This document shows, one piece after another, positions 1-19,938 of a DNA stretch of 21,850 bases. This DNA is from a virus. Under the pieces are notes generated by a model. It was given only the letters and a program-made list of their open reading frames with translations, was not told the origin of the DNA and searched no databases. The DNA lies in IMG/VR virus record IMGVR_UViG_3300023439_000062, positions 1 through 21,850 of that record; one strand, given 5' to 3'. Each line of letters starts with the position of its first letter. Position 1 is the stretch's first letter. The position numbers and the translations under genes are program-made.

Positions 1-381
1 AGTACCATAAATCATATTGATGTCATGCGAATGTAAATGTATTTTTGATATATCATGTTGTATTAATGAGCCACCAGCAATACAATTTAATAATTGTGCC
101 CCTCTACATATACCGATTACCGGAATGTTATTTTTTACTGCCTCTGTGGCTATCAGAATCTCTTTAATGTCTCTATTATAATCTGGGTCATCAGTCAACG
201 GTTGTTTAGGTTGTTTATAAATTGCTGGCGATATATCAGCACCACCTACTAATACCACTATATCGAACTGCTTAGTATTCAGTCTTTCATATGAGACCGA
301 GTATGGTATAGCCGCATTTGGATATAAGTGTTTAAATAATTCGATAGTGTCAAAATCGTAATAAGGAATATATATATTCAT
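1..381 (-). CDS. Class I glutamine amidotransferase (peptidase C26-like), partial
   Basis: The first 127 codons of a gene that runs off the left edge, so its C-terminal part is not visible. The reading frame contains VLVGGADISPAIY (about residues 43-55) and PVIGICRGAQLLN (about 87-99), where Cys92 sits in the G-I-C-R-G nucleophile elbow of class I glutamine amidotransferases and gamma-glutamyl hydrolases, followed by the family's GGSLIQH turn. These enzymes hydrolyse glutamine or gamma-glutamyl bonds and hand ammonia or a glutamyl group to a partner. The catalytic His/Glu pair would lie beyond the window. The ATG overlaps the stop of a 23-codon ORF (ATGA), which suggests translational coupling because no good ribosome binding site of its own is visible. 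The ATP-grasp gene just upstream suggests a joint role in making or modifying a peptide-like or cell-wall compound. The family call is strong; the substrate is unknown. Confidence 0.82.
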   Translation of the reverse strand, partial: MNIYIPYYDFDTIELFKHLYPNAAIPYSVSYERLNTKQFDIVVLVGGADISPAIYKQPKQPLTDDPDYNRDIKEILIATEAVKNNIPVIGICRGAQLLNCIAGGSLIQHDISKIHLHSHDINMIYGT

Positions 382-449
382 AGGTAATAGTAACAATTGA
401 GAATTGCTGTAAATAAAAAGATTACAATAAATAGTTTAAGATTAGTCAT
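378..449 (-). CDS. Tiny hydrophobic peptide (23 aa) between ATP-grasp and amidotransferase genes
   Basis: An ATG at 449 is preceded by a perfect AAGGAG Shine-Dalgarno sequence (minus strand of 456-461) at good spacing. The ORF encodes MTNLKLFIVIFLFTAILNCYYYL: one positively charged residue, then a single membrane segment, then a short Cys/Tyr-rich end. Its TGA overlaps the amidotransferase ATG, so it may act as a leader that couples translation, as a membrane peptide, or both. The LNC near the end is only weakly like a lipobox. I recognise no family. The strong ribosome binding site and the exact overlap support it being translated. Confidence 0.5.
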   Translation of the reverse strand: MTNLKLFIVIFLFTAILNCYYYL

Positions 450-461
450 TTAATACTCCTT

Positions 462-560
462 AGAGCTACATAGAGGCCGTATAAGCCTCGTTAATTAAAA
501 ATCTATACGAGTGTATAGGGTTAATAGTTTTTAAGCCTTATAAAGCCTCTATGTAGCTCT
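462..560 (-). repeat. 16-bp perfect inverted repeat spanning the ATP-grasp stop and the next ribosome binding site
   Basis: AGAGCTACATAGAGGC at 462-477 is the exact reverse complement of 545-560. On the leftward mRNA one arm is the last codons of the ATP-grasp gene and the other abuts the AAGGAG of the 23-codon ORF. The 67-nt interval holds a second small hairpin (CTATAC/GTATAG at 504-519) and an alternative one (GAGGC/GCCTC at 473-489). It could be an RNase III-type processing stem or a translational switch; there is no U-tract for a terminator. Confidence 0.6.
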
Positions 561-1350
561 TAAGGGCATTGTGATACTTATTGAATGTGGTATCTTTAAG
601 GGCAGGTGCAGTATTTACTTCAATGATAGCATAATCTTGTAATTTAACATCACCATCCACTGATTTAATTATCGCGCCTACATCTATAGCAGCAAAATCT
701 AACCCCAACGCTTCTACAGTTTTGATACAACTCTCTTCAATTTCAGGAAAAATGATAACATCCTGAATACAGAACACATATCCATTATCGAAATTACGGA
801 TTAAAGGATTATGAACTAGTCCTAATTGTTCCAAAGTTTCAGATTTACGTTTACGTTTTTCTTGTACATGTATTACTTTTCCGTTAAAGATGTGGTATCT
901 ATATTCATGGGTTAAAGGAAAGTGTGCAGTGTATAATTCTGCGTCTACAAGTTCATCTTTATTATTGGCAATTACTATACCTTTACCCTTACAACTTTTT
1001 ACTTTAGTTCTGCAATATACTTTATCATTCGTGTTAAATAAATATTTTGCATCTTCTTTGTTTAAAGTAAAAGTAAGAGAAGGTATATTGTTATTATGCA
1101 ATATTTTTAATGTTTTAATTTTATTAATAGCATTATGAACTGATGCTGGATCATTAAGCCATCGTTTAGGATGTGTTCCATTATAGTAACTACTGCCCCA
1201 ATTGATACATAAATCGTCATAGTGAGGATAATTATATTTACGAGAACGGATTACTAAATTTAAAGACCTTGCTAATTTAATATCAAATGTACGTCTTAAT
1301 TTAAGTTTATTATGTAATCTATATTTTTTACGAACAAGCATTGAAATCAT
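538..1350 (-). CDS. ATP-grasp ligase (carboxylate-amine/peptide ligase type)
   Basis: A 270-aa ATP-grasp enzyme, a family that joins a carboxylate to an amine through an acyl-phosphate at the cost of ATP. Visible signatures are the NDPASVHNAINKIKTL stretch (about residues 67-82), the ATP-lid-like RTKVKSCKGKGIVIA (about 114-128), the HEYRYHIFNGKVIHVQEKRKRK strand typical of phage and RimK-like members, LDFAAIDVG, and the metal-binding IEVNTAPAL near residues 243-251, with Glu and Asn as likely Mg ligands. The start at 1350 has GAAGG at proper spacing; a second ATG three codons on is possible. The next genes leftward are a 23-codon peptide and a class I glutamine amidotransferase. Phage clusters of ATP-grasp, amidotransferase and amidoligase proteins have been predicted by comparative genomics to make peptide-like modifications; the actual substrate here cannot be read from the sequence. 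Confidence 0.8.
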   Translation of the reverse strand: MISMLVRKKYRLHNKLKLRRTFDIKLARSLNLVIRSRKYNYPHYDDLCINWGSSYYNGTHPKRWLNDPASVHNAINKIKTLKILHNNNIPSLTFTLNKEDAKYLFNTNDKVYCRTKVKSCKGKGIVIANNKDELVDAELYTAHFPLTHEYRYHIFNGKVIHVQEKRKRKSETLEQLGLVHNPLIRNFDNGYVFCIQDVIIFPEIEESCIKTVEALGLDFAAIDVGAIIKSVDGDVKLQDYAIIEVNTAPALKDTTFNKYHNALKSYIEAL

Positions 1351-1518
1351 TTTAGTACCTTCAAAAAGAAGTGAAAAGAGGAAGATTGAACTTTTTTGGT
1401 TTTATATGGTCTAACAGCATAAGCGGCCTGAAGGAATATATATAATATAATAATATATATAATATATTAGATCTATTATATTATATAATATCTATTAAAT
1501 TATATTAAACCTATTAAA
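1351..1518. other. Intergenic stretch with an A/T-only tract
   Basis: No gene is visible. From about 1436 to 1510 the DNA is almost purely A/T, with nested palindromes such as ATATTATATAATAT and one TAGATCTA. The rest is the pyrimidine-rich leader of the ATP-grasp gene read leftward. It could be an easily melted region or simply the low-complexity end of the upstream transcript. Confidence 0.4.
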
Positions 1519-1902
1519 CTAGTTTATAATATTTAATAGTTCTTTAAGTACTTTAATCCAGTAGTTAAGTAATCTTATTCTGTACCAGTATCCTTTACCT
1601 TTCCATAGTGTTCCATTCATGCTATCCATTTGATAAGATTTAACATTATCTAATCCTTTAATTGTACTTTTAATCGGAAAGATATAATCCCCAGAATAAT
1701 ATTTCCATTCAGATAGTATTTCATTGTCTTTTAACATATTTTTTACATTAACACTTTTAATTGAATAATAGTTATTACATATTCCTATTGACATACAGTC
1801 ATCTTCTTCTTCTTTTATTTTTCTTTTTAAAAATTGTAATGATTTTAATGCAAGTTGTAATTGTGTCTTAGTTACTCCATATTCAGATATTAAATGTTTC
1901 AT
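1519..1902 (-). CDS. Conserved phage protein of unknown function (127 aa)
   Basis: The pattern MSIGICNNYYSI (about residues 37-48), then W-x-YYSG-x-YIFPI (about 67-77) and a closing W-x-R-x-RLL (about 106-111) matches a family of small hypothetical proteins scattered through tailed phages, which share a GIC-N motif, a W..-Y/F-SG..-PV motif and a final arginine-leucine helix. No function is established as far as I know. The N-terminal third is helical and charged (Lys/Glu-rich), with no signal peptide or membrane segment. The start at 1902 is supported by AAAGGTAATCC upstream. It sits between two A/T-only tracts and is probably transcribed with the neighbouring minus-strand genes. Confidence 0.7.
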   Translation of the reverse strand: MKHLISEYGVTKTQLQLALKSLQFLKRKIKEEEDDCMSIGICNNYYSIKSVNVKNMLKDNEILSEWKYYSGDYIFPIKSTIKGLDNVKSYQMDSMNGTLWKGKGYWYRIRLLNYWIKVLKELLNIIN

Positions 1903-2137
1903 TGGATTACCTTTTATAAAAGAAGAAAAGAAAAATAACCTATATTGAACTTTTATATAATAACTAATGTCTAATATAATTTTATATATTATATAGTTAT
2001 ATATATTTTATATAGTTTTTGTTTTTTAGAGTATATATTAAGAATATAATAGATACATACTAAAAGACTAAAGAAACTAAAGGATTGACTGTAAAGACTT
2101 ATAAGAATAATAAGACTAAGATGTCAATAGTATTAGT
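1903..2137. other. Intergenic A/T-rich region with one promoter-like site
   Basis: No gene is visible. It contains a second nearly pure A/T tract at about 1965-2020 and a minus-strand TTGACA (2122-2127) with TTATAA 17 nt further on (2099-2104). The promoter match is moderate because the -10 box is weak and the background is AT-rich. If used, it would drive the 127-aa gene with a long leader. Confidence 0.35.
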
Positions 2138-2305
2138 TTATTTAGTCCTAAAGTCACTTGTAATTAAACAGTATAATACTATAGTTAATGCAACTATAGA
2201 CCATAAGAAAATAATCATTGGTAATCCTTGTGGTAAGAAGATAGGCAATATCAAATAAGTTAAAAACAATAATGTAGGCGTTATTATCTTTAAGTAATTA
2301 TTCAT
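2138..2305 (-). CDS. Small membrane protein (55 aa)
   Basis: The frame reads MNNYLKIITP and then two hydrophobic segments (about residues 11-28 and 30-48) separated by PQG, ending DFRTK, so a two-helix inner-membrane hairpin is expected. The start overlaps the end of the upstream 38-aa ORF by 8 nt (GTAAATGAATAA), a spacing typical of translational coupling. There is no recognisable family. Small membrane proteins of this kind in early phage regions are often host-takeover or superinfection-exclusion factors, but that is only a possibility here. Confidence 0.5.
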   Translation of the reverse strand: MNNYLKIITPTLLFLTYLILPIFLPQGLPMIIFLWSIVALTIVLYCLITSDFRTK

Positions 2306-2414
2306 TTACAGTTACTCTATATTTATTATGGTTACGGAACCAATTAGCTACTTCATAGTCGTATGTATAACAGATTGGAGTTGTTTGGTGTAATAAATAA
2401 ATGTAATACTTCAT
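2298..2414 (-). CDS. Small protein of unknown function (38 aa)
   Basis: It begins MKYYIYLLHQ and is rich in Tyr and aromatic residues, with a central YDYEVANWF and a basic RNHNKYRV near the end. A strong AAAAGGAAAATAAA ribosome binding site precedes the ATG at 2414, and the stop overlaps the start of the 55-aa membrane protein. The compact arrangement with a good ribosome binding site argues for real translation. I see no motif that gives a function. Confidence 0.5.
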   Translation of the reverse strand: MKYYIYLLHQTTPICYTYDYEVANWFRNHNKYRVTVNE

Positions 2415-2457
2415 TTTATTTTCCTTTTATTTTAAGTTAATTAAGGATACTAATTTA

Positions 2458-2494
2458 GCTACATCATAACGAATATCGTTAAATATGATGTAGC
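2458..2494 (-). other. Strong hairpin after the 47-aa ORF
   Basis: GCTACATCAT (2458-2467) pairs exactly with ATGATGTAGC (2485-2494), and inside it AACGA pairs with TCGTT across a 3-nt loop, giving 15 bp with one 4-nt bulge. It lies 13 nt past the stop of the 47-aa ORF and upstream of the 38-aa ORF on the leftward transcript. No U-tract follows, so processing or mRNA stabilisation fits better than termination. Confidence 0.6.
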
Positions 2495-2507
2495 CAGTTG
2501 TAACATA

Positions 2508-2651
2508 TTACGTTTTTACTCTCATGTTTAGTAGGTAATCTAAATTAGAGTAGTTTATAACGATAGTTTTATTATGTTTGTCGCTTAGTCTAGTAACTGC
2601 TTTTATATCAGCATTACTTTCTATAGACCTAGCAAACTCTACACTGAACAT
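2508..2651 (-). CDS. Small protein of unknown function (47 aa)
   Basis: It starts MFSVEFARSIESNADIKAV and ends NLDYLLNMRVKT, with a predicted helix-strand-helix look and no membrane segment or cysteine. The ribosome binding site AAGGTATTGAT resembles that of the 63-aa gene just upstream (GAGGTATTGAAA). It sits between that gene and a strong hairpin. No family recognised. Confidence 0.5.
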   Translation of the reverse strand: MFSVEFARSIESNADIKAVTRLSDKHNKTIVINYSNLDYLLNMRVKT

Positions 2652-2727
2652 ATCAATACCTTATTATGAATAGCACTTTTGTGATAGTAGTAAAAAATTT
2701 TATCGAATCCTTGCGAAGATGGTAAAC

Positions 2728-2919
2728 CTAAACAGCTTCCCAATACTTACCTTGTGTTTTAGATATTACCTTAATTTTATCGCGCCCTATTCGAACAGTA
2801 GCTCTCATAATCGAACCATCTCTTACTGCTCTTATATGTGTACAGTCTGCTAGAACTGTACGATTACCAAGCATTATTACTTGAGACATACGAGGGCTAA
2901 AAGTGTACCATTTTTTCAT
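2728..2919 (-). CDS. Small basic protein of unknown function (63 aa)
   Basis: It begins MKKWYTFSPRMSQ and runs through alternating hydrophobic and charged residues (VIMLGNRTVLADCTHIRAV, then IMRATVRIGRDKIKVI), which suggests a small beta-rich fold such as an SH3-like or OB-like barrel. The net charge is positive. I chose the ATG at 2919 over the TTG at 2925 because GAGG lies 8 nt before the ATG but only 2 nt before the TTG. It is preceded by one of three dyad-plus-TATAAT promoter-like elements, so it may start its own transcript. Function unknown. Confidence 0.6.
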   Translation of the reverse strand: MKKWYTFSPRMSQVIMLGNRTVLADCTHIRAVRDGSIMRATVRIGRDKIKVISKTQGKYWEAV

Positions 2920-2951
2920 TTTCAATACCTCAAATTCTAGAATATAAGACT

Positions 2952-2978
2952 ATTATATTTATAAGGCCGTCCTTGGCC
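2952..2978 (-). promoter_or_regulatory. Dyad-TATAAT promoter-like element upstream of the 63-aa gene
   Basis: On the minus strand GGCCAAGGACGGCC (2965-2978) is followed after exactly 7 nt by TATAAT (2952-2957). It has the same layout as the elements at 3359-3385 and 4007-4033. The dyad occupies the place of a -35 box, as expected for an activator-dependent or repressor-controlled promoter; it can also fold as an RNA hairpin just after the Csx16-like gene's stop. Confidence 0.55.
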
Positions 2979-2985
2979 TGTTAAG

Positions 2986-3339
2986 TTACCCGCAAAACTC
3001 TGAGTTATACGGGCATATATCATTATAGAAACCAGACCCGCATTGGCAAGTGGATGTTGGGATTTCTTTGACCCTGTACGTAACAGGGTTCCCTGCGAAC
3101 CGCTGTACCTGTTCAAATGACAGCTCTTTGCCGCGCAATTCAGCAGGGATGTTCAGAGGCACCTCTGTGATAGAGTTGGCGTGCACAGCTAACGATAACG
3201 GCAACACGCCTATCACATCCCTGTCTTTTACATCTTCGACTGTGGCATGGGCAACCACAGTATCTTCAGGGGACATTAAGTCCATCTTTAAAAGATATTC
3301 AATTAGCCCACTGTGTCTGGTTACGATCACTTTTTTCAT
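2986..3339 (-). CDS. csx16-like: Csx16-like protein, candidate ring nuclease (anti-type III CRISPR)
   Basis: The 117-aa protein opens with MKKVIVTRHSGLIEYL, then VVAHATVEDVKDRDVIGVLPLSLAVHANS (about residues 28-56), VPLNIPAELRGKELSFEQV and a final YRVKEI. This matches the order of conserved blocks in the CRISPR-associated Csx16 (VVA1548) family: V-x-RH-G-x-x-E, V-AH, V-IG-LP, LP-ELRGKELS. Csx16 proteins accompany type III systems and have been assigned as ring nucleases that destroy cyclic-oligoadenylate signals. A phage copy without cas genes nearby would plausibly blunt a host type III defence; that is inference. After the domain comes a tail with CQCGSG and further cysteines, resembling a zinc-binding SEC-C motif. 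The base composition looks less AT-rich than that of its neighbours, hinting at separate acquisition. A dyad-TATAAT element precedes it. Confidence 0.65.
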   Translation of the reverse strand: MKKVIVTRHSGLIEYLLKMDLMSPEDTVVAHATVEDVKDRDVIGVLPLSLAVHANSITEVPLNIPAELRGKELSFEQVQRFAGNPVTYRVKEIPTSTCQCGSGFYNDICPYNSEFCG

Positions 3340-3358
3340 AACAACTCCTATTAACTAT

Positions 3359-3385
3359 ATTAAATAAATCAGGCCATCCTTGACC
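3359..3385 (-). promoter_or_regulatory. Dyad-TTTAAT promoter-like element upstream of the Csx16-like gene
   Basis: Minus-strand GGTCAAGGATGGCC (3372-3385) is followed after exactly 7 nt by TTTAAT (3359-3364). The arms pair with one G-T wobble. The likely start point is about 20 nt upstream of the gene's ATG at 3339, close to AGGAG at the ribosome binding site. It also lies 12 nt after the stop of the 180-aa gene. Confidence 0.55.
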
Positions 3386-3396
3386 CGTTAAAAAAA

Positions 3397-3939
3397 TTAT
3401 GCAGCTTCTTGTTGATCTTCTGGTTCAACCAACTCTTTAAGTTGTTCTTCGAGGGCTTTTAACTCCTCGAGTTTATTAACAAAATCAGACACTAAAAGAG
3501 AGTCGATGTCTTCGAACTCAACAACAAGCTTTTCCATACGCTTTGTTGCGCTTAATATTCCCTTCAAAGATTTATTAAGGTCATTTGATTCCGTATCCTC
3601 GGTCTCTTTCTTTTCCCAGAATGGCGTCTTAATAAGGTTTTCCACCTGTTTTTTGGTAAATTTTAAGGCTTTACCTTTTCTTTTAAATCTGAATGACTCA
3701 GATTCTTTATCGTAAATAATATTTAAGTGGTCACATAACCACCTAACGATAAGTTTTTTATAAATGGACTTATTGTTAACGGATTTTATACCGTTAGACA
3801 ACAATGCAATGTTGCCTGATTCGGCAACGTGGAATGAAGCACTAACAAATGCTTCAAAGTATATAGTCTTAGCTTCAGATTCGAAACGGCTGGCCGTTTC
3901 GATTGCTTTGATTACCTGATTTGCTTCATATTTTTTCAT
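3397..3939 (-). CDS. Acidic early protein of unknown function (180 aa)
   Basis: A soluble, mostly helical protein. The first half (about residues 1-95) carries MKKYEANQVIKAIETASRF, a repetitive Ser/Asn stretch and a basic FRFKRKGKALKFTKKQ patch. The second half (about 100-180) is a probable coiled coil of Glu/Lys/Leu heptads ending LEEQLKELVEPEDQQEAA. The ribosome binding site is GGAG, well placed for the ATG at 3939. It has a dyad-TATAAT element about 60-95 nt upstream. The basic patch next to an acidic coiled coil could fit a nucleic-acid or host-protein binder, but I do not recognise a family. Confidence 0.65.
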   Translation of the reverse strand: MKKYEANQVIKAIETASRFESEAKTIYFEAFVSASFHVAESGNIALLSNGIKSVNNKSIYKKLIVRWLCDHLNIIYDKESESFRFKRKGKALKFTKKQVENLIKTPFWEKKETEDTESNDLNKSLKGILSATKRMEKLVVEFEDIDSLLVSDFVNKLEELKALEEQLKELVEPEDQQEAA

Positions 3940-3977
3940 AGCAATTACTCCAGTTATTTAAAGAAAACGATAGGAAA

Positions 3978-4018
3978 CCTATCTATAAAAGCACTAAAGT
4001 AATGCCATTATAGATAGG
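3978..4018. repeat. 11-bp inverted repeat overlapping a promoter-like element
   Basis: CCTATCTATAA (3978-3988) is the exact reverse complement of TTATAGATAGG (4008-4018), with a 19-nt spacer. The right arm overlaps the TATAAT box of the dyad promoter at 4007-4033. It could be a second operator, or form a leader hairpin only in transcripts that started further upstream. Confidence 0.45.
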
Positions 4019-4033
4019 CGGTCATCCGTGACC
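4007..4033 (-). promoter_or_regulatory. Dyad-TATAAT promoter-like element upstream of the 180-aa gene
   Basis: Minus-strand GGTCACGGATGACC (4020-4033) is a perfect 5-bp dyad with a CGGA centre, followed after exactly 7 nt by TATAAT (4007-4012). It is the best copy of the three. It begins 10 nt after the stop of the 67-aa gene. Confidence 0.55.
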
Positions 4034-4042
4034 TACCAGCCC

Positions 4043-4246
4043 TCATTCGTCATAAAAATGACTGGGGACTAGGTAATCGTCCCCCATGTCGGTTACGACT
4101 AACCATTCGCCGCCACCCCTGGCGACTTCTTCTTTTTTACACATATCCCTAAAATTGGGAATATGCGAAATAGGGCATTGCAAGTAATTTGCAAGACCCT
4201 CGTTGGTTAAACGAAGTTTCGAAATATTGATTGTGAAATCATTCAT
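4043..4246 (-). CDS. Small protein of unknown function (67 aa)
   Basis: It starts MNDFTINISKLRLTNEGLANYL, followed by CPISHIPNFRDMCKKEEVARGG and an acidic end (VTDMGDDYLVPSHFYDE). I chose the ATG at 4246, which follows GAGGGTGTATC, over an upstream ATG at 4291 that lies inside the stem of the ncRNA terminator. It is the first gene after the non-coding RNA, so terminator read-through is one way it could be expressed. No domain recognised. Confidence 0.6.
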   Translation of the reverse strand: MNDFTINISKLRLTNEGLANYLQCPISHIPNFRDMCKKEEVARGGGEWLVVTDMGDDYLVPSHFYDE

Positions 4247-4269
4247 GATACACCCTCGTAATAAAGAAT

Positions 4270-4309
4270 TAAAAGAACAAAAATAAATCACTCTAAATCA
4301 AAGTGATTT
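4270..4309 (-). terminator. Rho-independent terminator of the non-coding RNA
   Basis: On the minus strand AAATCACT pairs with AGTGATTT (4302-4309 with 4285-4292), an 8-bp stem with a 9-nt loop, followed by ATTTTTGTTCTTTT. The stem is AT-rich, so it may be leaky and let some transcription reach the leftward genes. Confidence 0.65.
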
Positions 4310-4846
4310 AGTCTTGTCCCTGTAGGCGCATGAAGGTTTGCTAGACCTTACCACACGCCTACAGAAGGCACTATTACGCGGTCATTTTGCTTTCGCCGCT
4401 ATAATATAACCCATGATTGAACTAGGTCTGTATTGCTATTTTTTCACAATAAAGCCTAATCCATTGTTATAAAATCCTTTTATACACGGATTAACCCTGT
4501 TACGGGCTTTCGTACCTATTTCATGGTGCTAGTACTACAGAACTCGCAAGACCCCGCCCAAAAGTCAAAAATACGCTAAATCCTTGTATTTTATGAACTT
4601 TTCGGCCTGCACTCCACATATGAACGAGCTTTTTTTCTAGCATTGCATAAACCCACAGACCTACTTGTTAAGTGAGTAATGCGCTAGGATAGAGACTCTA
4701 CTCTACCTGTAGATTGCAACATCTAGCAAGCTATACCAAACTTCAGCATAACCAAGTCACGTTAACACCTTGTGACTCACGGACTACCCGTGTCTAGCTG
4801 CAATCACTCGCCCTAATGAAGGGGCGCGCTAATTCTAACACCATAT

Positions 4847-4858
4847 TGTTAAAGAGCG
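4847..4858 (-). promoter_or_regulatory. boxA: boxA antitermination element
   Basis: The minus strand reads CGCTCTTTAACA, a full match to the boxA consensus bound by NusB-NusE (S10) in rRNA leaders and lambdoid nut sites. It starts roughly 26 nt after the expected start of the nearest promoter and follows directly after a small hairpin (GTGT-TTCTG-ACAC), the boxB-boxA order of rRNA leaders. Confidence 0.7.
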
Positions 4859-4891
4859 TGTCAGAAACACTTGTTTTCCGACTTGGGTTCT

Positions 4892-4919
4892 ATTATACAG
4901 ATCCCAATCAATTTGTCAA
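4892..4919 (-). promoter_or_regulatory. Consensus sigma70 promoter (nearest to the ncRNA)
   Basis: Minus strand TTGACA (4914-4919), 16-nt spacer, TATAAT (4892-4897). Both hexamers are perfect. The expected start is near 4884. Confidence 0.85.
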
Positions 4920-4959
4920 TCCCTATGACGTTTTGTTTAATCCCTTAACTTGGTTTCAC

Positions 4960-4987
4960 ATTATACAGGATTAGATATGAATGTCAA
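4960..4987 (-). promoter_or_regulatory. Consensus sigma70 promoter
   Basis: Minus strand TTGACA (4982-4987), 16-nt spacer, TATAAT (4960-4965). Both hexamers are perfect. The spacer ends CTG before TATAAT exactly as in the next promoter 68 bp downstream, so the two may have arisen by duplication. Confidence 0.85.
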
Positions 4988-5026
4988 TAGCCAGAAAAAA
5001 TCTTGCATATATATAATGCTCGCGCG

Positions 5027-5055
5027 TGAATAACATAATTTTGTCAGTCTGTCAA
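5027..5055 (-). promoter_or_regulatory. Probable sigma70 promoter with extended -10
   Basis: Minus strand TTGACA (5050-5055) and, 17 nt on, TATTCA (5027-5032) preceded by TGT, an extended -10 arrangement. The -10 hexamer is weaker than in its neighbours. Confidence 0.55.
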
Positions 5056-5087
5056 TAGCTAATAGAAAAGAAAAACAAAATTCTATT

Positions 5088-5116
5088 ATTTTACCAGAGT
5101 TTGCCAGACTTGTCAA
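5088..5116 (-). promoter_or_regulatory. Sigma70 promoter
   Basis: Minus strand TTGACA (5111-5116), 17-nt spacer, TAAAAT (5088-5093): a perfect -35 and a 5/6 -10. Confidence 0.72.
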
Positions 5117-5142
5117 ATGCATATTTTTCTGACAAATCTACC

Positions 5143-5171
5143 ATGATAACAGAAAAAGTTAGGCATGTCAA
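5143..5171 (-). promoter_or_regulatory. Sigma70 promoter (furthest upstream of the array)
   Basis: Minus strand TTGACA (5166-5171), 17-nt spacer, TATCAT (5143-5148): a perfect -35 and a 5/6 -10. It starts the five-promoter array. Confidence 0.7.
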
Positions 5172-5438
5172 ATTTAGTCGATAGGGTGGTAGGTTGGGAA
5201 TGATGCGATATGTGTGGTATATATGTATATATGACCCTCATACCCTCTCTTTCTTTTTCCTTTCTATATATAAATATTAATACTACCAAAATAAACAAAT
5301 CTAAGCTTGTTTAAGAGACGATAATATTTTACCAGTATATTACCTTACTCTATACATTTTTAAGCCATAGGGTGCCTCTATGGAACTTTAATTATATATA
5401 TCATGTCTAACTCTACAAAAATATAAATAAATATTATT
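5172..5438. other. Divergent intergenic region upstream of the late block
   Basis: No gene is supported. It holds a plus-strand pyrimidine tract (about 5236-5270), AT-rich sequence and a hairpin CCATAG/CTATGG (5365-5370 with 5378-5383) followed by TTTAAT at 5387. A rightward promoter must lie here or further right, but I find no good sigma70 match, which suggests that late genes use a phage-controlled promoter. Confidence 0.4.
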
Positions 5439-5705
5439 ATGCCAAGTTCAAAAAATTATAAACGAGATTATAACCAAGAATACAAAGTATCTCAGTCTTC
5501 AAAAGCTGAAATTAAAAAACGTAGTTCTAGAAATAAGGCTAGAAGAATGATGATGAAAAAAGGAAAAGTTAGATTAGGAGATTCAATGGATGTAGATCAT
5601 AAAAATATGAATCCTTTGAATAATTCAGTATCCAATCTTAGAGTAGTATCTAAATCTAAAAATAGATCATTTAAAAGAAATTCTAAAGCTGGAAAGAAGA
5701 GATAA
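5439..5705 (+). CDS. Small HNH endonuclease-like protein
   Basis: An 88-aa basic protein starting MPSSKNYKRDYNQEYK. Residues about 47-83 hold the HNH core DVDHKNMNPLNNSVSNLRVVSK: the DH pair supplies the catalytic histidine, and the SNLRVVSKSKNRS strand-helix is typical of short phage HNH proteins found next to terminase genes. The N-terminal half is a positively charged DNA-binding-like helix region. It is the first gene of the rightward block, one base before TerS (5707). Such proteins either assist terminase cleavage in cos-type packaging phages or act as free-standing homing nucleases; the position next to TerS favours the packaging role, without proof. Confidence 0.8.
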   Translation: MPSSKNYKRDYNQEYKVSQSSKAEIKKRSSRNKARRMMMKKGKVRLGDSMDVDHKNMNPLNNSVSNLRVVSKSKNRSFKRNSKAGKKR

Positions 5706-5706
5706 A

Positions 5707-6213
5707 ATGAATGAAGATTTACATACTTCAGTAAAAGAAATATCAGTATCTGAACCAAGACTATCTCCAGAAGAAAAGTTATATGTAAAAGCATATCTTA
5801 GAACCTTATCTCACAAAGAATCACATTCTTTAGTTAGTAATGTAAAACATCCAACTAAAAATAATAGATTCTATAAAAGTGAAGCCGTTCAGTATCATAT
5901 CCAAAAGCAGATGATTAATAAATTAGATGCTAAAGGGTTAACTGAGGATGATGTTATGAATCTTCTTTTACAAGAAGCAACTAATCGTGGAAAAGGAAGC
6001 TCACCTACAGCGCGAGTGCAGGCACTTTCTCTTTTAGGAAAACAACTTGGAATGTTTGAAGAGAAACAAAAAGAATCTACACAAACTACTTTTAATATTA
6101 TCAATTATTCTTCAGATAAAAAAGAAAAAGATGAAACATCTATTATAGAAAAAGTAGAAGAACAGAAAAATTCACAAGAAACTTCTTTGCCAATAGTAAT
6201 ACAAAAATATTAA
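5707..6213 (+). CDS. terS: Terminase small subunit
   Basis: This 168-aa protein would recognise phage DNA and hand it to the TerL motor. Residues about 20-50 (LSPEEKLYVKAYLRTLSHKES) look like the helix-turn-helix entrance of small terminases, and residues about 77-118 (LTEDDVMNLLLQEATNRGKG, then SSPTARVQALSLLGKQLGMF) match the conserved oligomerisation core, in particular the SS-AR-ALSLLGK-LGMF motif widespread in phage TerS proteins. The C-terminal 45 residues are polar and disordered, the usual contact region for TerL. It follows the HNH gene with one base between, while its TerL lies 5 kb downstream, an unusual separation since the two are commonly adjacent. Confidence 0.8.
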   Translation: MNEDLHTSVKEISVSEPRLSPEEKLYVKAYLRTLSHKESHSLVSNVKHPTKNNRFYKSEAVQYHIQKQMINKLDAKGLTEDDVMNLLLQEATNRGKGSSPTARVQALSLLGKQLGMFEEKQKESTQTTFNIINYSSDKKEKDETSIIEKVEEQKNSQETSLPIVIQKY

Positions 6214-6220
6214 CAATACA

Positions 6221-6646
6221 ATGACAGATTATTCAATTCTAAAATCAAAACTAGCCGACCCTGCATTTTCCACATTTAATGATGAGCAAATCAGAATAGC
6301 TCTAAATACTAAAGATATTCCAGTGAAACAACCAATACCTGTTTCTCAAATCAAGGCGTATTTGCAGTTGATCGACAAACGACTGGTCATCAAAGACTCT
6401 ACAGATCCTGCCGCACGTGCTGCTGAAATTGCTTTACAAGAGTTTCAAGTGTTTGATGTCAATGATGCTGCTTACCTAAATAAGCTGACAACTATTTTAG
6501 ATAACCTTGTAACTGCTGGAATAATTACAACTGCAGATAAGACAACTATCTTATCGCTGGGCGATAGTCTTGTGTCGTGGTCTGACCAAAACTGGCAAGG
6601 CGATGTTACTTTAACTGATATTGTTAATGCTAGAAACTATGTTTAA
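6221..6646 (+). CDS. Phage protein of unknown function (141 aa)
   Basis: A helical protein opening MTDYSILKSKLADPAFSTF, with an Ala-rich middle (AARAAEIALQEF) and LTTILDNLVTAGIIT. Its base composition is less AT-rich than TerS. It sits between TerS and small virion-associated genes, 7 nt after TerS. The repeated pattern of a short helix plus an acidic Asp/Asn turn resembles proteins found beside tail fibre genes in marine and enteric phages, but I cannot name a family with confidence. Confidence 0.6.
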   Translation: MTDYSILKSKLADPAFSTFNDEQIRIALNTKDIPVKQPIPVSQIKAYLQLIDKRLVIKDSTDPAARAAEIALQEFQVFDVNDAAYLNKLTTILDNLVTAGIITTADKTTILSLGDSLVSWSDQNWQGDVTLTDIVNARNYV

Positions 6647-6854
6647 AAAATATATCTGGAACATACTAATTAGTATTGACCAATTTGTTAATACATTATT
6701 CGGCGGAGACCCTGATGAAACACTTAGTAGCAGAATGGGCAAAAACAAGACAAATTGCCGAGTATGTTACTTTATTTGCAAATTACTAAGTTTGATTGAT
6801 AAAAGACATTGCGAAAAGTCAATTGAACTAGATGAAGGTAAGGATGAGATATAA
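6639..6854 (+). CDS. Small phage protein with a cysteine cluster (71 aa)
   Basis: The ATG at 6639 (MFKKYIWNILISIDQFVNTL) overlaps the preceding stop by 8 nt and is preferred to the upstream TTG at 6621. An amphipathic N-terminal helix is followed by GGDPDETLSSRMGKNKTNCRVCYFICKLLSLIDKRHC and an acidic tail. The GGDPDET-SSRMGK signature with a later C-x-x-C and Cys-rich helix recurs in hypothetical proteins of many tailed phages near holin or fibre genes. It may associate with the membrane. Function unknown. Confidence 0.65.
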   Translation: MFKKYIWNILISIDQFVNTLFGGDPDETLSSRMGKNKTNCRVCYFICKLLSLIDKRHCEKSIELDEGKDEI

Positions 6855-11433: not shown

Positions 11434-13746
11434 ATGAGTAATATTATAACAATACCTCACGAGTTTAAACCTCGACCTTATCAATTAGAATTATTTAAAG
11501 CAATGGATAGCGGATATAAAAGAGCTATTGTTGTATATCATCGTCGAGCAGGTAAAGATAAATCATTATTTAACCTACTTATTAAAAAAGCTTTTGAACG
11601 AAAAGGTGTATATTATTATCTTTTTCCTGAATTTGCACAAGGCCGAAGAGTAATCTGGGATGGCGTAGATGGGTCAGGATTTAAATTTTTAGATCATATT
11701 CCAGAACAACTAATTCAACGTAAAAACTCTACTGACATGAAACTTGAATTAGTCAATGGATCTGTCATTCAAGTTATTGGTACAGATAAGTTTGATAAGG
11801 TTCGAGGATCTAATCCAGTAGGATGTGTATTTTCAGAATTTGCATTTCAAAACCCTAAAGCATGGCATATTGTAAGACCAATTCTTGCTGAAAATGGTGG
11901 ATGGGCTTGTTTTAATAGTACTCCTAATGGTAAAAATCATTTCTATAAGATGTATAATATGGCATTGAATAACCAGAATTGGTTTACTCAATTTCTTACA
12001 GTAGATGATACTAAAGATTGGGATGGAAATCCCATCATTACACAAGAGGCTATCCAAGAAGAAATTGATGCCGGAATGTCTAAAGAAATGGTTCAGCAGG
12101 AATTTTATTGTTTTCTTCCATTTGTATCTGATGTTATTACAAATAATGGAATTAAAGATATATCAGAAATAACTACATCTGACATGGTATTAACTCATGG
12201 TAATTCATATAGAAGAGTGAGAGGAGTATCTAAAAGATACTATTCAGGAGAAATTCTTAAAATAAAAGTAATAGGTAATAATAAACCAATTTATTGCACC
12301 CCGAATCATCCTTTTAGAGTATGTAACGATGGTGTTAATAATAAATGGATTCCAGCTGAAAATCTAAGTTTAAGTGATAGGCTAACAATACCTAGACCTC
12401 TTGTTGATAATTTTAAAGTTATTTCAGAAAATTTAGCATTCATTATATCTTGGTATATAACTGAAGGATCTTGTGGTAAAAATACTGTTCAATTTACAAT
12501 CAATCTGTCTTCTGAAAAAGATATTAGTAAAAAACTAAAAAAAGCGATTAAAGAAGAGTTTGGATTAAAATGTAAATTTTATGATAATATTAAAAATAAT
12601 ACTAGAACAATAACTGTATGTTCAAGACATTTACGTGAATTCTTAATACTTAATTGTGGAGCAGGCTCTATTAATAAGAAAATTCCTCCAATAATAAAGG
12701 GTTATGAACAATTAGTATTTGATAATTTAATATTAGGTGATGGACATATTCAAAATAATTCTGAATTTATATATACGACTATTTCAAAAACTTTAGCATA
12801 TCAAGTGCAATTATTAGGAAATTCGCTAGGGTATAAAATGCGAATTAGGGAAATTAAAAATAATTCTAATGGAAATATTTTAGGTAGGAATGTTTTATTA
12901 AACACTGTATATGATATAAGAGGAAATAAATCATCTAAATCTCGATTTATAAATAAACATAAATATAATTATTCTACTAAAATACTTTCAATAGAAAAAG
13001 AACATTACGAAGGTAATGTATATAATTTAGATGTAGCAGAAGAACATAGTTATTGTGTAAATTCTATAGTAGTACATAATTGTTCATGGATTGCAAATTC
13101 ACAAGGATTTTATTTTCTTTCTCTAATTGAAGAAGCAGAACAAGAAAAGAGAATAACTAATTTAGATATAGATCCTTCGGTACCAGTAAGTACCTGGTGG
13201 GATATCGGTGTAGGCGATAATACCTGTATTTGGTTTACTCAAATTGTAGATAATAAAATTCATGTAATTGATTTTTTACAAGATAAAGGTAAAGGACTAG
13301 ACCATTATGCTAAATTATTACAGCGTAAAAAATACATCTATGCTAGTCATAATTTTCCTCATGATATAATGAATATTGAATTTGGAACAGGTAGAACTAG
13401 ATTTGAAGTTGCTGAAAAGTTATTTGTAGGAACAAAAGTAAATTGTATTCCTAAACTTCCCTTAGAGGAAGGTATTAATGCAGTACGTATGGTATTACCT
13501 TTGTGTTATATAGATCAAAAAAGATGTGCAATAGGAATAGATGCACTTAAAAATTATCATAGACAATTCGATGAAAAAAATCAAGAATACAAAGACAAGC
13601 CTGTACATGATTGGTCATCTGATCCAACTGATGCTTTTAGATACATGAGTATAGGAATTACATTACCAAAGAAAAGATCATTTAGATCTGAATATATGAG
13701 AAACTCAAATAAAGTAGTTTCAATTAAGGATTGGAAAAGCGCATAA
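11434..13746 (+). CDS. terL: Terminase large subunit, interrupted by an intein
   Basis: The packaging motor and nuclease. The 770-aa precursor shows a Walker A-like HRRAGKDKS (residues 36-44), Walker B VGCVFSE (129-135), and an RNase H-like nuclease with Asp590 in WWDIG and the closing DWSSDPTDAFRYM (about 727-739), whose aspartates are likely metal ligands. Residues 226-549 are an in-frame intein; without them the protein is 446 aa, normal for a compact T7-like or Terminase_6-type TerL. The two exteins join as QQEFY-CSWIANS, between ATPase and nuclease. It starts 2 nt after the holin stop, with a poor ribosome binding site, and shares TAATG with the portal gene. Packaging should depend on protein splicing. 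Confidence 0.92.
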   Translation: MSNIITIPHEFKPRPYQLELFKAMDSGYKRAIVVYHRRAGKDKSLFNLLIKKAFERKGVYYYLFPEFAQGRRVIWDGVDGSGFKFLDHIPEQLIQRKNSTDMKLELVNGSVIQVIGTDKFDKVRGSNPVGCVFSEFAFQNPKAWHIVRPILAENGGWACFNSTPNGKNHFYKMYNMALNNQNWFTQFLTVDDTKDWDGNPIITQEAIQEEIDAGMSKEMVQQEFYCFLPFVSDVITNNGIKDISEITTSDMVLTHGNSYRRVRGVSKRYYSGEILKIKVIGNNKPIYCTPNHPFRVCNDGVNNKWIPAENLSLSDRLTIPRPLVDNFKVISENLAFIISWYITEGSCGKNTVQFTINLSSEKDISKKLKKAIKEEFGLKCKFYDNIKNNTRTITVCSRHLREFLILNCGAGSINKKIPPIIKGYEQLVFDNLILGDGHIQNNSEFIYTTISKTLAYQVQLLGNSLGYKMRIREIKNNSNGNILGRNVLLNTVYDIRGNKSSKSRFINKHKYNYSTKILSIEKEHYEGNVYNLDVAEEHSYCVNSIVVHNCSWIANSQGFYFLSLIEEAEQEKRITNLDIDPSVPVSTWWDIGVGDNTCIWFTQIVDNKIHVIDFLQDKGKGLDHYAKLLQRKKYIYASHNFPHDIMNIEFGTGRTRFEVAEKLFVGTKVNCIPKLPLEEGINAVRMVLPLCYIDQKRCAIGIDALKNYHRQFDEKNQEYKDKPVHDWSSDPTDAFRYMSIGITLPKKRSFRSEYMRNSNKVVSIKDWKSA
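12109..13080 (+). mobile_element. Intein with LAGLIDADG homing endonuclease in TerL
   Basis: 324 codons begin at Cys (codon 226, CFLPFVSDVITNNGIK) and end in VVHN just before Cys550. Visible splicing residues are the N-terminal nucleophile Cys1, block B TPNH (Thr64, His67), the penultimate His and terminal Asn (H323, N324) and the +1 Cys of the extein, so a standard class 1 mechanism is expected. Block F is YEGNVYNLDVAEEHSYCVN. Between the splicing halves are two dodecapeptides, LAFIISWYITEG (about 109-120) and VFDNLILGDG (about 203-212), with Glu119 and Asp211 as the likely catalytic acids of a DOD endonuclease, so it is probably a mobile, active intein. Base composition is even more AT-rich than the exteins. 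Confidence 0.93.
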
Positions 13747-17469: not shown

Positions 17470-18292
17470 TATCTTTTCGCATAGCTCTCATTAAATCCTT
17501 TTTATTGCTGGAATATCCTTAGAGTCTTTAGAACTACAAAGTAGAGATGAAATACGCTCAGGCTTGAAATTATGAATTATTATTTTAATAATCATGAGTG
17601 TTTAAAAATCTAAAGAATTGGACAATCAGCAGGGAAGCCTCGAAATAGAGGAACCTTCAACGACTAGGGTTAAACCTATAGGATATATTTATCCGAAACA
17701 GAGGACAATTAATGAAAATTTGTAATAAGTGTAATACGGAATTTCCACTTTCTTTTTTCTTTAAAAATAAAAACAATAAGGATGGTAGATTAAACTCATG
17801 TAAAAACTGTTGTAGAGAATATAATCTTAAATATAAAAGCAAAAATAAAAAACTTTTATATAAACAGAATAAAGATTGGCGACTTAGAAATAAAGAGCGA
17901 ATCAAAAAGTATATGACAGAATATCGTCTTAATAATAGGGATAAAATATATGAAGTTAATCAACAATGGATTAAAAGAAATAAAGAAAGATACCGAGCAA
18001 TAAAAAATGCTTGCAACGCTCAAAGAAGGGCGAACAAAAGATGTGCATTTGTTAAATGGGCTGATAAAAAAGCAATTAAAGACTTGTATAAAGAGGCTCA
18101 ACAATTAACAATGCTTACCGGTATTGCACATCATGTAGACCATATAATTCCTTTAGTAAATCCTAAAGCATGTGGACTACATGTTGAAACTAATCTTCGA
18201 ATTATAACTGCCGAAGAGAATATTAAAAAATCAAATAAATTAATTGAAGATATAGTCTGAACTATATGGAGACATATAGATTAACATAATTG
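17470..18292 (+). mobile_element. Group I intron 1 in the capsid gene
   Basis: 823 nt carrying the group I core in order: P-like ATTGCTGGAA (17504-17513), Q-like AATCAGCAGGGAAG (17624-17637), R-like TTCAACGACTAG (17656-17667) and S-like AAGATATAGTCT (18247-18258). GACTA (17662-17666) pairs with TAGTC (18253-18257) as P7. P1 is clear: exon TGAGGGT (17463-17469) pairs with GCTCTCA (17484-17490), giving a U-G wobble exactly at the 5' splice site. The intron ends in G at 18292. Splicing joins GGT to AAC in frame. An HNH endonuclease gene fills the loop between the two P7 strands. Confidence 0.9.
17712..18260 (+). CDS. HNH homing endonuclease of capsid intron 1
   Basis: 182 aa. The N-terminus has a zinc-ribbon-like pair (CNKC at residues 4-7 and CKNC about 30-33). 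The middle is a long Lys/Arg-rich helical region, presumably for DNA grip. The HNH nuclease is at about 141-180: HHVDHIIPL, then ACGLHVETNLRIITAEENIKKSN. The paired histidines and final Asn are the metal and catalytic residues. It would cut intron-less capsid genes and drive intron spread. GAGGA precedes its ATG. Its last codons (DIV and stop) are the S/P7 strand of the ribozyme, so coding and catalytic RNA overlap. The same architecture occurs in the second intron's protein. Confidence 0.9.
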   Translation: MKICNKCNTEFPLSFFFKNKNNKDGRLNSCKNCCREYNLKYKSKNKKLLYKQNKDWRLRNKERIKKYMTEYRLNNRDKIYEVNQQWIKRNKERYRAIKNACNAQRRANKRCAFVKWADKKAIKDLYKEAQQLTMLTGIAHHVDHIIPLVNPKACGLHVETNLRIITAEENIKKSNKLIEDIV

Positions 18293-19087
18293 AACGAAGA
18301 AGAGATGCGTTCTTACAATGACAAAATCACTATTGACTTAATCAGTCATGGTGTTCGTCAGAAAGGTAAGCTCGCAGAACAAAAAACTGTAATTAACTTT
18401 AGAGAAAATGCACGAGATCGATTAGCATATTGGTTATCTAATCGTATGGATCAATTGGCATTTTTAACTTTATCTGGAGTTGATTATTCACGAAACAATG
18501 ATGGTTCATTAAGGACTTCTACAGCATTTAGCAATTTGGCTTTTGCTGCTAGTGTAACTCCTCCTTCTGCTAAACGCCATCTTCGTGTAACAAATACAAC
18601 TGGTGATTCTACTGGTTATACCGGTCTAGCTACTGGCAATACCGCAGCTATGGTAAGTACAGATGTTCTTACTTATAAAGCTATTGTAGATATTGCTACA
18701 TATGCAAAGAATCATTATATTAAACCATTGAATGAAGGTGGTAAAGAATATTATATTGCTTTTGTTCGTCCTGAAGCATTAGCTCAACTGAAGAAGGATG
18801 CAGACTATCAAAGAGCTATTACTACTGCCGAACAACGCTCATCTAAAAACCCTTGGTTTACAGGTGGTGTTGTAACAGTAGACGGTATTGTATTCCACGA
18901 ACATCGTTTGGTTTATAATACTACTGGTGCTACTTCAGGCACCGATAAATGGGGTGCTGCTGCAAATGTGGACGGCTCTCGCATGTTGTTGTGCGGCGCT
19001 CAAGCATTGGGCATGGCTGACTTAGGTGCCCCAGAGTGGTCAGAAAAATGGTTTAACTATGATTCAAGTCCAGGCATTAATGTCGAT
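18293..19087 (+). CDS. Major capsid protein (N4-gp56 family), exon 2
   Basis: 265 codons forming most of the HK97-fold shell protein: NEEEMRSYNDKITIDLISHG, VRQKGKLAEQKTVINFRENA, RDRLAYWLSNRMDQLAFLTLS, later YYIAFVRPEALAQLKKDADY, TGGVVTVDGIVFHEHRLVYN and LCGAQALGMADLGAPEWSEK. All follow the order of N4-gp56 family proteins. It begins directly after the intron's terminal G; there is no start codon of its own, although a TTG just upstream could mimic one. The end is placed after GAT (NYDSSPGINVD), since the following CRLAA and stop do not fit the family and lie in intron 2. Confidence 0.88.
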
Positions 19088-19938
19088 AAAATTTGTCGCC
19101 TAGCAGCGTAATCTGCTAGTGAAAATCTCTCTAATTGCTGGAAACTCTTGATAGGTACTTTAACTACAAACATTACGAAAGTAGATGTTGAAAGTTTAAA
19201 AATAAAGTAATAGAGACAATCAGCAGCTAAGACTCTAAGTAGAAACTTATTAGCAATTTTAAGTGTCTATATGAGTAAAGTTCAACGACTAGAGCATGGC
19301 TCGTACACTTTTAGCTTAAAGTGGAAATGGGAGATATCGTATGAAAGAGTGTAAATATTGTAAACGCAAGGATGATGGCGTAATTCCTTTTGTCCAAGAT
19401 GAAAGGAAATGTGTTGAGTGTAGGAATAGACTCAAAAGAGAAAAATATAAGAATGATTTAGAATATAGGAAACGGGTTATAGAATATAATTCGAACTATA
19501 GAAATCAAACAGAAAATAAAATTAAATTTAAAAAGTACTATAAAGAATATTCAACTAATTCTAAAAATAAAGATAGAATTAAAAAGATTAAGTTAAAATA
19601 TTCTAAAAATAATCCTCATAAGATTAATGCGCATACTGCATTGCGCAGAGTTAAAAAATTGCAAAGAACTGTTTTTAATAATGATATTACAAATCATAAT
19701 ATAAAAGAAACATATAAATTATGTGCAATATTAAATAAACATTCTAAACAAACTTTTAACGTAGATCATATAATTCCTTTACAAGGAAGGTGTGTATCTG
19801 GATTACATGTTACTCTTAATTTACAAGTTATTCCCTCACAAATAAATTTTTACAAAAATAATTCTTTCAACGATAAAGATATAGTCTAAACTACATGGAG
19901 ACATGTAGAGATACAAGGAATGTATCGTAATATAATTG
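19088..19938 (+). mobile_element. Group I intron 2 in the capsid gene
   Basis: 851 nt with the same core order as intron 1: AATTGCTGGAAAC (19133-19145), AATCAGCAGCTAAG (19218-19231), GTTCAACGACTAGA (19280-19293) and AAGATATAGTCT (19876-19887), with P7 as GACTA (19287-19291) and TAGTC (19882-19886). P1 may be exon CGAT (19084-19087) with GTCG (19095-19098), again with U-G at the splice site, followed by a 7-bp P2-like stem (19100-19106 with 19113-19119). The 3' end TAATTG matches intron 1. This gives VD-KMFGFLKP. An alternative boundary (DKI-FGF, ending the intron at ATG, 19944) would also fit the family, so the exact nucleotides are less certain than for intron 1. Confidence 0.85.
19341..19889 (+). 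CDS. HNH homing endonuclease of capsid intron 2
   Basis: 182 aa, the same length as the intron 1 enzyme but clearly diverged. A zinc-ribbon-like start (CKYC at 4-7, CVEC about 24-27), a basic helical middle (KNKDRIKKIKLKYSKNNPHK), and an HNH domain FNVDHIIPLQGRCVSGLHVTLNLQVI (about 141-166) ending with INFYKNNS. DH is the catalytic pair. The DIV-stop end again overlaps the ribozyme S element. GGGAG precedes the ATG. It is expected to cut at the capsid exon 2/exon 3 junction of intron-less relatives. Confidence 0.9.
   Translation: MKECKYCKRKDDGVIPFVQDERKCVECRNRLKREKYKNDLEYRKRVIEYNSNYRNQTENKIKFKKYYKEYSTNSKNKDRIKKIKLKYSKNNPHKINAHTALRRVKKLQRTVFNNDITNHNIKETYKLCAILNKHSKQTFNVDHIIPLQGRCVSGLHVTLNLQVIPSQINFYKNNSFNDKDIV

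Follow-up and report, generated by a model that had tools for sequence, protein, structure and literature searches.

A phage-borne Csx16-family protein outside the branch of sampled CRISPR-associated Csx16, with a proposed role in the degradation of cA4

The Csx16 of type III loci is described in PMC12409355 as a ring nuclease specific for cA4, which it degrades, whereas cA6 is not degraded. What would such a protein do in a phage? The question is raised by a 21,850-base IMG/VR virus record (hereafter the window), a 21.85-kb fragment that carries a csx16-like gene on its minus strand. Csx16 was already known from phages: in an isolate-weighted set of 28,114 phage genomes Csx16 was found in two and AcrIII-1, by far the commonest ring nuclease, in 36 (PMC12409355), and Csx16 is annotated in the methanogen viruses Drs3 and PhiF3. 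The literature on Csx16/VVA1548 and on ring nucleases in viruses and metagenomes, as covered here mostly outside subscription papers, yielded no virus-specific Csx16 branch; PMC13148439 and PMC12830947 cite the Csx16 work and describe how other families act as sponges or anti-CRISPRs.

Identity and conservation of the phage protein

The gene encodes 117 amino acids, divided into a conserved core and a short C-terminal tail:

2986..3339, minus strand: csx16-like gene, 117 aa (open frame with ATG and AGGAG; PF09652; PADLOC Csx16)
3345..3349, minus strand: ribosome-binding site AGGAG, read from the sequence upstream of csx16
3064..3339, minus strand: Csx16 core, residues 1–92, an alpha/beta domain with conserved R8-H9, H31, G44, P47 and R69-G70-E72-L73 (alignments and AlphaFold2)
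2986..3063, minus strand: C-terminal tail, residues 93–117, with four cysteines spaced C-x-C-x8-C-x6-C (sequence; disordered in the model)

The order of motifs in the protein (VTRHSGLIE, VVAH, DVIGVLP and NIPAELRGKELS) had been recognized from the letters alone as that of Csx16, and profile searches bear this out at a level that excludes chance. Pfam family PF09652 (Cas_VVA1548) matches residues 5–91 with positions 2–91 of its 91 (61.4 bits, E 9.4e-17, gathering cut-off 25), and the PADLOC Csx16 profile scores 63.1 bits. The Csx16 equivalog model NCBIfam TIGR02620 matches the same stretch at 29.5 bits and does not reach its curated cut-off of 46.35, so the protein is filed under PF09652 and not under the equivalog. 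PHROGs gave no credible match (E 0.12 and 0.25, both rejected). It is thus nearly certain that the protein belongs to the Csx16 family in the Pfam sense; profile, alignment, tree and structure model all support both this assignment and the phage context.

In an alignment of 52 rows, H9, G44 and P47 are invariant, R8 and L73 are each kept in 51 rows, L46 and G70 in 50 and R69 in 48, and H31 is substituted in eight. The R-H, G-x-L-P and R-G-x-E-L residues common to the CRISPR-associated members are all intact in the window protein. Among eight pairs of virus proteins that are ∼ 60% or more identical, dN ranged from 0.21 to 0.39 against a dS of 1.2–3.3 or saturated, which indicates that the protein is constrained in related viruses.

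The AlphaFold2 model of the window protein has block mean pLDDT values of 95–98 over residues 1–90 (pTM 0.75) and a disordered tail. With this model, Foldseek found nothing in the PDB or among viral structures at E ≤ 0.001, and a sequence search of the PDB found no solved Csx16 structure; its matches, mostly to short stretches of DARPins and other repeat proteins, were judged spurious. In a second structural comparison of the core model, the high rows included the CARF domain of Cam1 (8t66; Z 4.2, rmsd 3.5 over 83), SiRe_0806 with cA4 (9jxx; Z 4.0, rmsd 3.2 over 84), the CARF domain of Cad1 (9c68; Z 3.8, rmsd 3.5 over 83) and the ring nuclease Sis0455 (7z55; Z 3.7, rmsd 3.3 over 90). This is a weak comparison, in which CARF and Crn1 chains stand near the top (Z ≤ 4.2) interspersed with unrelated folds at Z 3–4, such as HPRT.

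None of the other 35 rows in an alignment of relatives (A6, see below) has this tail, and the pattern C.CGSG.{4,6}C matched only the window protein within the 683 kb scanned. We take its C-x-C-x8-C spacing to resemble the SEC-C motif; a reading of the tail as a SEC-C zinc motif was rejected, Pfam PF02810 having no match in the window at E 10. The tail is Cys-rich and, judged by these residues, possibly a metal site.

Genomic surroundings of csx16

The csx16 gene lies within a set of small minus-strand genes directed away from the structural genes, with the following features around it:

2952..2978, minus strand: copy of a promoter-like element after csx16, upstream of a 65-aa gene (pattern count)
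3359..3385, minus strand: promoter-like element upstream of csx16, consisting of the imperfect palindrome GGTCAAGGATGGCC, 7 nt and TTTAAT (pattern count)
3397..3939, minus strand: 180-aa gene upstream of csx16 (phrog_1448, E 6.8e-10, unknown function)
4007..4033, minus strand: copy of the same element ahead of the 180-aa gene (pattern count)
4892..5171, minus strand: four sigma-70-like promoter matches, two of 12/12 and two of 11/12, facing the operon (sequence match)

Scanning for relatives of the 180-aa gene product recovered none. The promoter-like element that had been claimed for csx16 exists as a pattern, GGYCAMGGAYGRCC-N7-TWTAAT, with three exact minus-strand copies in the window, each intergenic in the csx16 operon, against 0.01 expected for a consensus that was drawn from these same three copies. 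The copy before csx16 ends 19 nt upstream of the ATG. RNA folds of the three copies are not unusually stable (z −1.26, 0.23 and −1.00), and a hairpin or CsrA-site reading of these intergenic repeats was rejected on that ground. Because the folds are ordinary and the gap to the −10-like hexamer is fixed at 7 nt, the element is better read as a DNA promoter site; palindrome and hexamer together may form a middle promoter of the phage that includes a site for an activator. A scan of the collection for the element gave one further exact match, roughly the chance expectation, before a capsid-region gene in two near-identical contigs of one phage (L066/L067) that has no detectable similarity to the window.

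Positions 1–6000 contain 36 promoter-like sites, which is not above chance (31.3 in shuffles, sd 5.8). From the direction of the operon, away from the structural genes and behind the sigma-70-like sites, we infer that csx16 belongs to the early region. Past the promoter matches, at 4847–4857 on the minus strand, GCTCTTTAACA precedes a stretch of ∼ 550 nt without a gene of at least 60 aa. We take it to resemble an rRNA-type boxA, a likeness that suggests possible antitermination of the operon.

The GC3 of csx16 is 0.51 versus 0.19 in the pooled other genes that were measured, a value reached in none of 20,000 resamplings; the next two upstream genes are intermediate (0.35 and 0.40). This high GC3 suggests that csx16 was recently acquired by its phage.

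The plus strand encodes a P22-like portal protein whose nearest named relatives are those of MW202615 (68% identity) and Acidovorax phage AP1 (45%); identity to Pseudomonas phages such as KPP25 is 38%. Given these relatives (AP1, KPP25-type phages and MW202615), the host is probably a member of the Pseudomonadota. The nearest named relatives by portal have genomes of ∼ 55–65 kb, so that the window of 21.85 kb holds only about one third of the phage genome. Within this fragment of a larger genome there was no RAMP match and no Cas10 palm; the earlier statement that the protein is encoded without cas genes holds to that extent, and, as far as 21.85 kb show, csx16 does not belong to a type III CRISPR locus. 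No integrase was recognized among the window genes scanned with Pfam and PHROGs, which are a subset of the genes of an incomplete fragment.

Several other features of the window deserve mention. Positions 11434–13746 carry a likely large terminase gene with an intein (LAGLIDADG and splicing domains). The capsid gene region (17621–19909) contains a group I intron at 19078–19405 (Rfam 60 bits) and two HNH-like genes, recognized by eye, with similar flanking repeats around the region. At 1–1350 on the minus strand, a Peptidase C26/glutamine amidotransferase adjoins an ATP-grasp-like protein that matches phrog_2599 (annotation: ribosomal protein S6 glutaminyl transferase), a possible peptide-ligation pair in a phage.

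Relatives and the four-residue loop

A search with the window protein alone found one IMG/VR virus contig, and two small alignments raised this to 36 contigs besides the window. Alignment A6 comprises 36 rows (the window, 34 virus loci and one cellular locus, with two partial loci omitted), all of which match PF09652 and just one of which has a PHROG match at E 0.01. Terminase_6N was found in 13 and Phage_portal in eight of the 37 virus records (18 combined); the window is assigned to a virus by its P22 portal, and the records without either domain by IMG/VR classing. A Cas10 palm domain was present in none of the 37 virus records and in both of the csx16 plasmids with type III genes. RAMP-like genes gave weak matches in two virus records (G027 and G031), the former encoding a CysH-like protein and, with scores under the cut-off, proteins resembling Csf2/Csf3. 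In the virus-classed contig L041 (8001–13418), Csx16 is found a few kb from Csf2-like, Csf3-like and CysH-like genes, a set that, by gene content, appears to resemble type IV CRISPR.

Among 398 Pseudomonadota genomes surveyed with the PF09652 profile, 12 had csx16 above cut-off; 11 of these 12 carry RAMP genes, nine of them on the same contig, and one (G214) had no RAMP match. Among named phages, 50,697 phage records gave no tblastn match to the window protein, the Deinococcus protein or the L024 protein; the only tblastn hits of a cellular query and the L046 query were Drs3 (two records) and PhiF3, both methanogen viruses. A scan of viral contigs with a CRISPR-type pattern pair confirmed no locus, which, for such short patterns, would make it less likely that many loop-bearing phage genes escaped detection. 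The pattern scan of genome contigs found a single cellular locus; as its patterns fit only 6/33 virus rows and 1/14 cellular rows, nothing about rarity follows from it. Seeds for the viral scans were alignments of loop-less proteins (A3 and A4), so that loop-less hits were favoured; the cellular survey, made with the Pfam profile, did not start from such seeds.

The tree was built from 52 proteins and 100 columns, with 29 of its 49 inner branches being open forks; it leaves out L036, L039, L050 (partial), L064 (below cut-off) and the second and third Csx16 copies of plasmid pMESIL02, and its cellular rows are Pseudomonadota only. The window protein falls in a clade of 23 rows (support 100/99), 21 from viruses and two from cas-less plasmids. 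All 14 cellular proteins belong to a group of 15 rows (support 96/93) that includes one virus protein, L048, and is adjoined by a Methanobacterium virus and an archaeal plasmid. Thus, the window protein is outside the branch of the sampled CRISPR-associated Csx16.

The same division is seen in a four-residue loop (as in CARGARYLHL), which is present in all 14 cellular proteins and in Drs3 and is missing from 33 of the 34 uncultivated-virus proteins, the window protein included, and from all three cas-less plasmid proteins. All eight loop-less virus relatives tested were below the NCBIfam TIGR02620 cut-off and both of the loop-bearing proteins tested (L048 and L008) pass it, so the missing loop may account for the shortfall. 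Since only Pseudomonadota are represented among the cellular rows, Csx16 of other phyla could break this rule. Being within the core, the deletion could change or abolish substrate use.

The window protein thus shares with CRISPR-associated Csx16 (TIGR02620; PF09652) the profile match over the whole core, the three conserved motifs and the core size, but differs from it in the missing loop, the sub-threshold NCBIfam score, the Cys-rich tail and the absence of type III genes from the window. The genes of Drs3 and PhiF3 (MH674343, MN737622) are likewise virus-borne and annotated as Cas_VVA1548/Csx16, and Drs3 also has no Cas10 palm or RAMP match; unlike the window, however, both are archaeal viruses, and the Drs3 protein carries the loop, and its branch lies close to the cellular clade. 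Csx16 from the cas-less plasmids of Deinococcus proteolyticus and Allomeiothermus silvanus shares the 23-row clade and the deletion, but is plasmid-borne and, in A. silvanus, occurs as a tandem pair in one protein plus a third copy. This tandem Csx16-Csx16 protein is encoded at 5992–6774 of locus L005 on pMESIL02, the third copy lies elsewhere, and the plasmid has no Cas10 or RAMP matches.

Proposed function and its alternatives

We consider it likely, with a probability of about 0.7, that the window protein is a Csx16 enzyme of a mainly viral and cas-less-plasmid branch that degrades host cA4 and thereby blunts type III CRISPR defence. The phage operon would express the protein; a host type III complex, on sensing phage RNA, would make cyclic tetra-adenylate (cA4); the phage Csx16 would bind this ring and cleave it to linear products, and cA4-activated effectors would stay off or be switched off. 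We infer the cA4 mechanism from a tested relative and, with it, the activity, timing, target system and anti-defence benefit. The anti-type III step is better founded than the author of the sequence-only reading could know, because degradation of cA4 by Csx16 has been demonstrated (PMC12409355). That reading also drew an analogy with AcrIII-1 (Crn2, DUF1874), a viral cA4 ring nuclease (PMC12409355), which stands as a proposal of function, viral destruction of cA4, but not as a relationship: AcrIII-1 was undetected by all sequence searches of the window protein, and the two would be related at most by fold. PMC12409355 reports a DALI Z of 4.8 between a Csx16 model and 2J6B, a viral Crn2 relative.

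The deletion of the loop, which may alter the active site, leaves room for a sponge, that is, a protein that binds cA4 or another cyclic nucleotide and cleaves it slowly or not at all. Csx15 is a precedent, being a good cA4 sponge and a very slow nuclease (PMC13148439). The same source argues that type III systems produce too much messenger for sponging to pay, and the window protein keeps the residues conserved in CRISPR-associated Csx16, including R-H and RGxEL; we regard a sponge as unlikely. Divergence of the virus branch, seen in its separate clade and the missing loop, could also mean that the enzyme acts against a different signal, such as that of CBASS or another cyclic-nucleotide system, and not against type III CRISPR. 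The published Csx16, however, is cA4-specific even at high enzyme concentration (PMC12409355), which makes such a switch rather improbable.

It is also conceivable that csx16 is a cargo gene, shielding a lysogen or a plasmid-bearing host from the toxicity of its own type III system instead of serving as an anti-CRISPR. The presence of loop-less Csx16 on cas-less plasmids would fit this explanation, but the phage gene lies in an operon beside structural genes and the scanned part of the window offers no integrase, and we find this explanation very doubtful.

Returning to the degradation of host cA4 by a phage enzyme, a broader proposal, to which we give a little less than even odds, is that the loop-less proteins missed by NCBIfam and PHROGs constitute a second, virus-adapted Csx16 branch, a type III anti-CRISPR family that is widespread among uncultivated bacterial phages. 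The missing loop may retune the speed or specificity of these enzymes, and members may add tails of their own, such as the putative metal-binding Cys cluster seen here. If so, the destruction of cA4 would be commoner among phages than isolate-weighted genomes suggest, the branch being found on at least 36 uncultivated virus contigs, and the virus branch would supply a ready-made set of natural variants in the loop, for an enzyme with no solved structure found by sequence searches.
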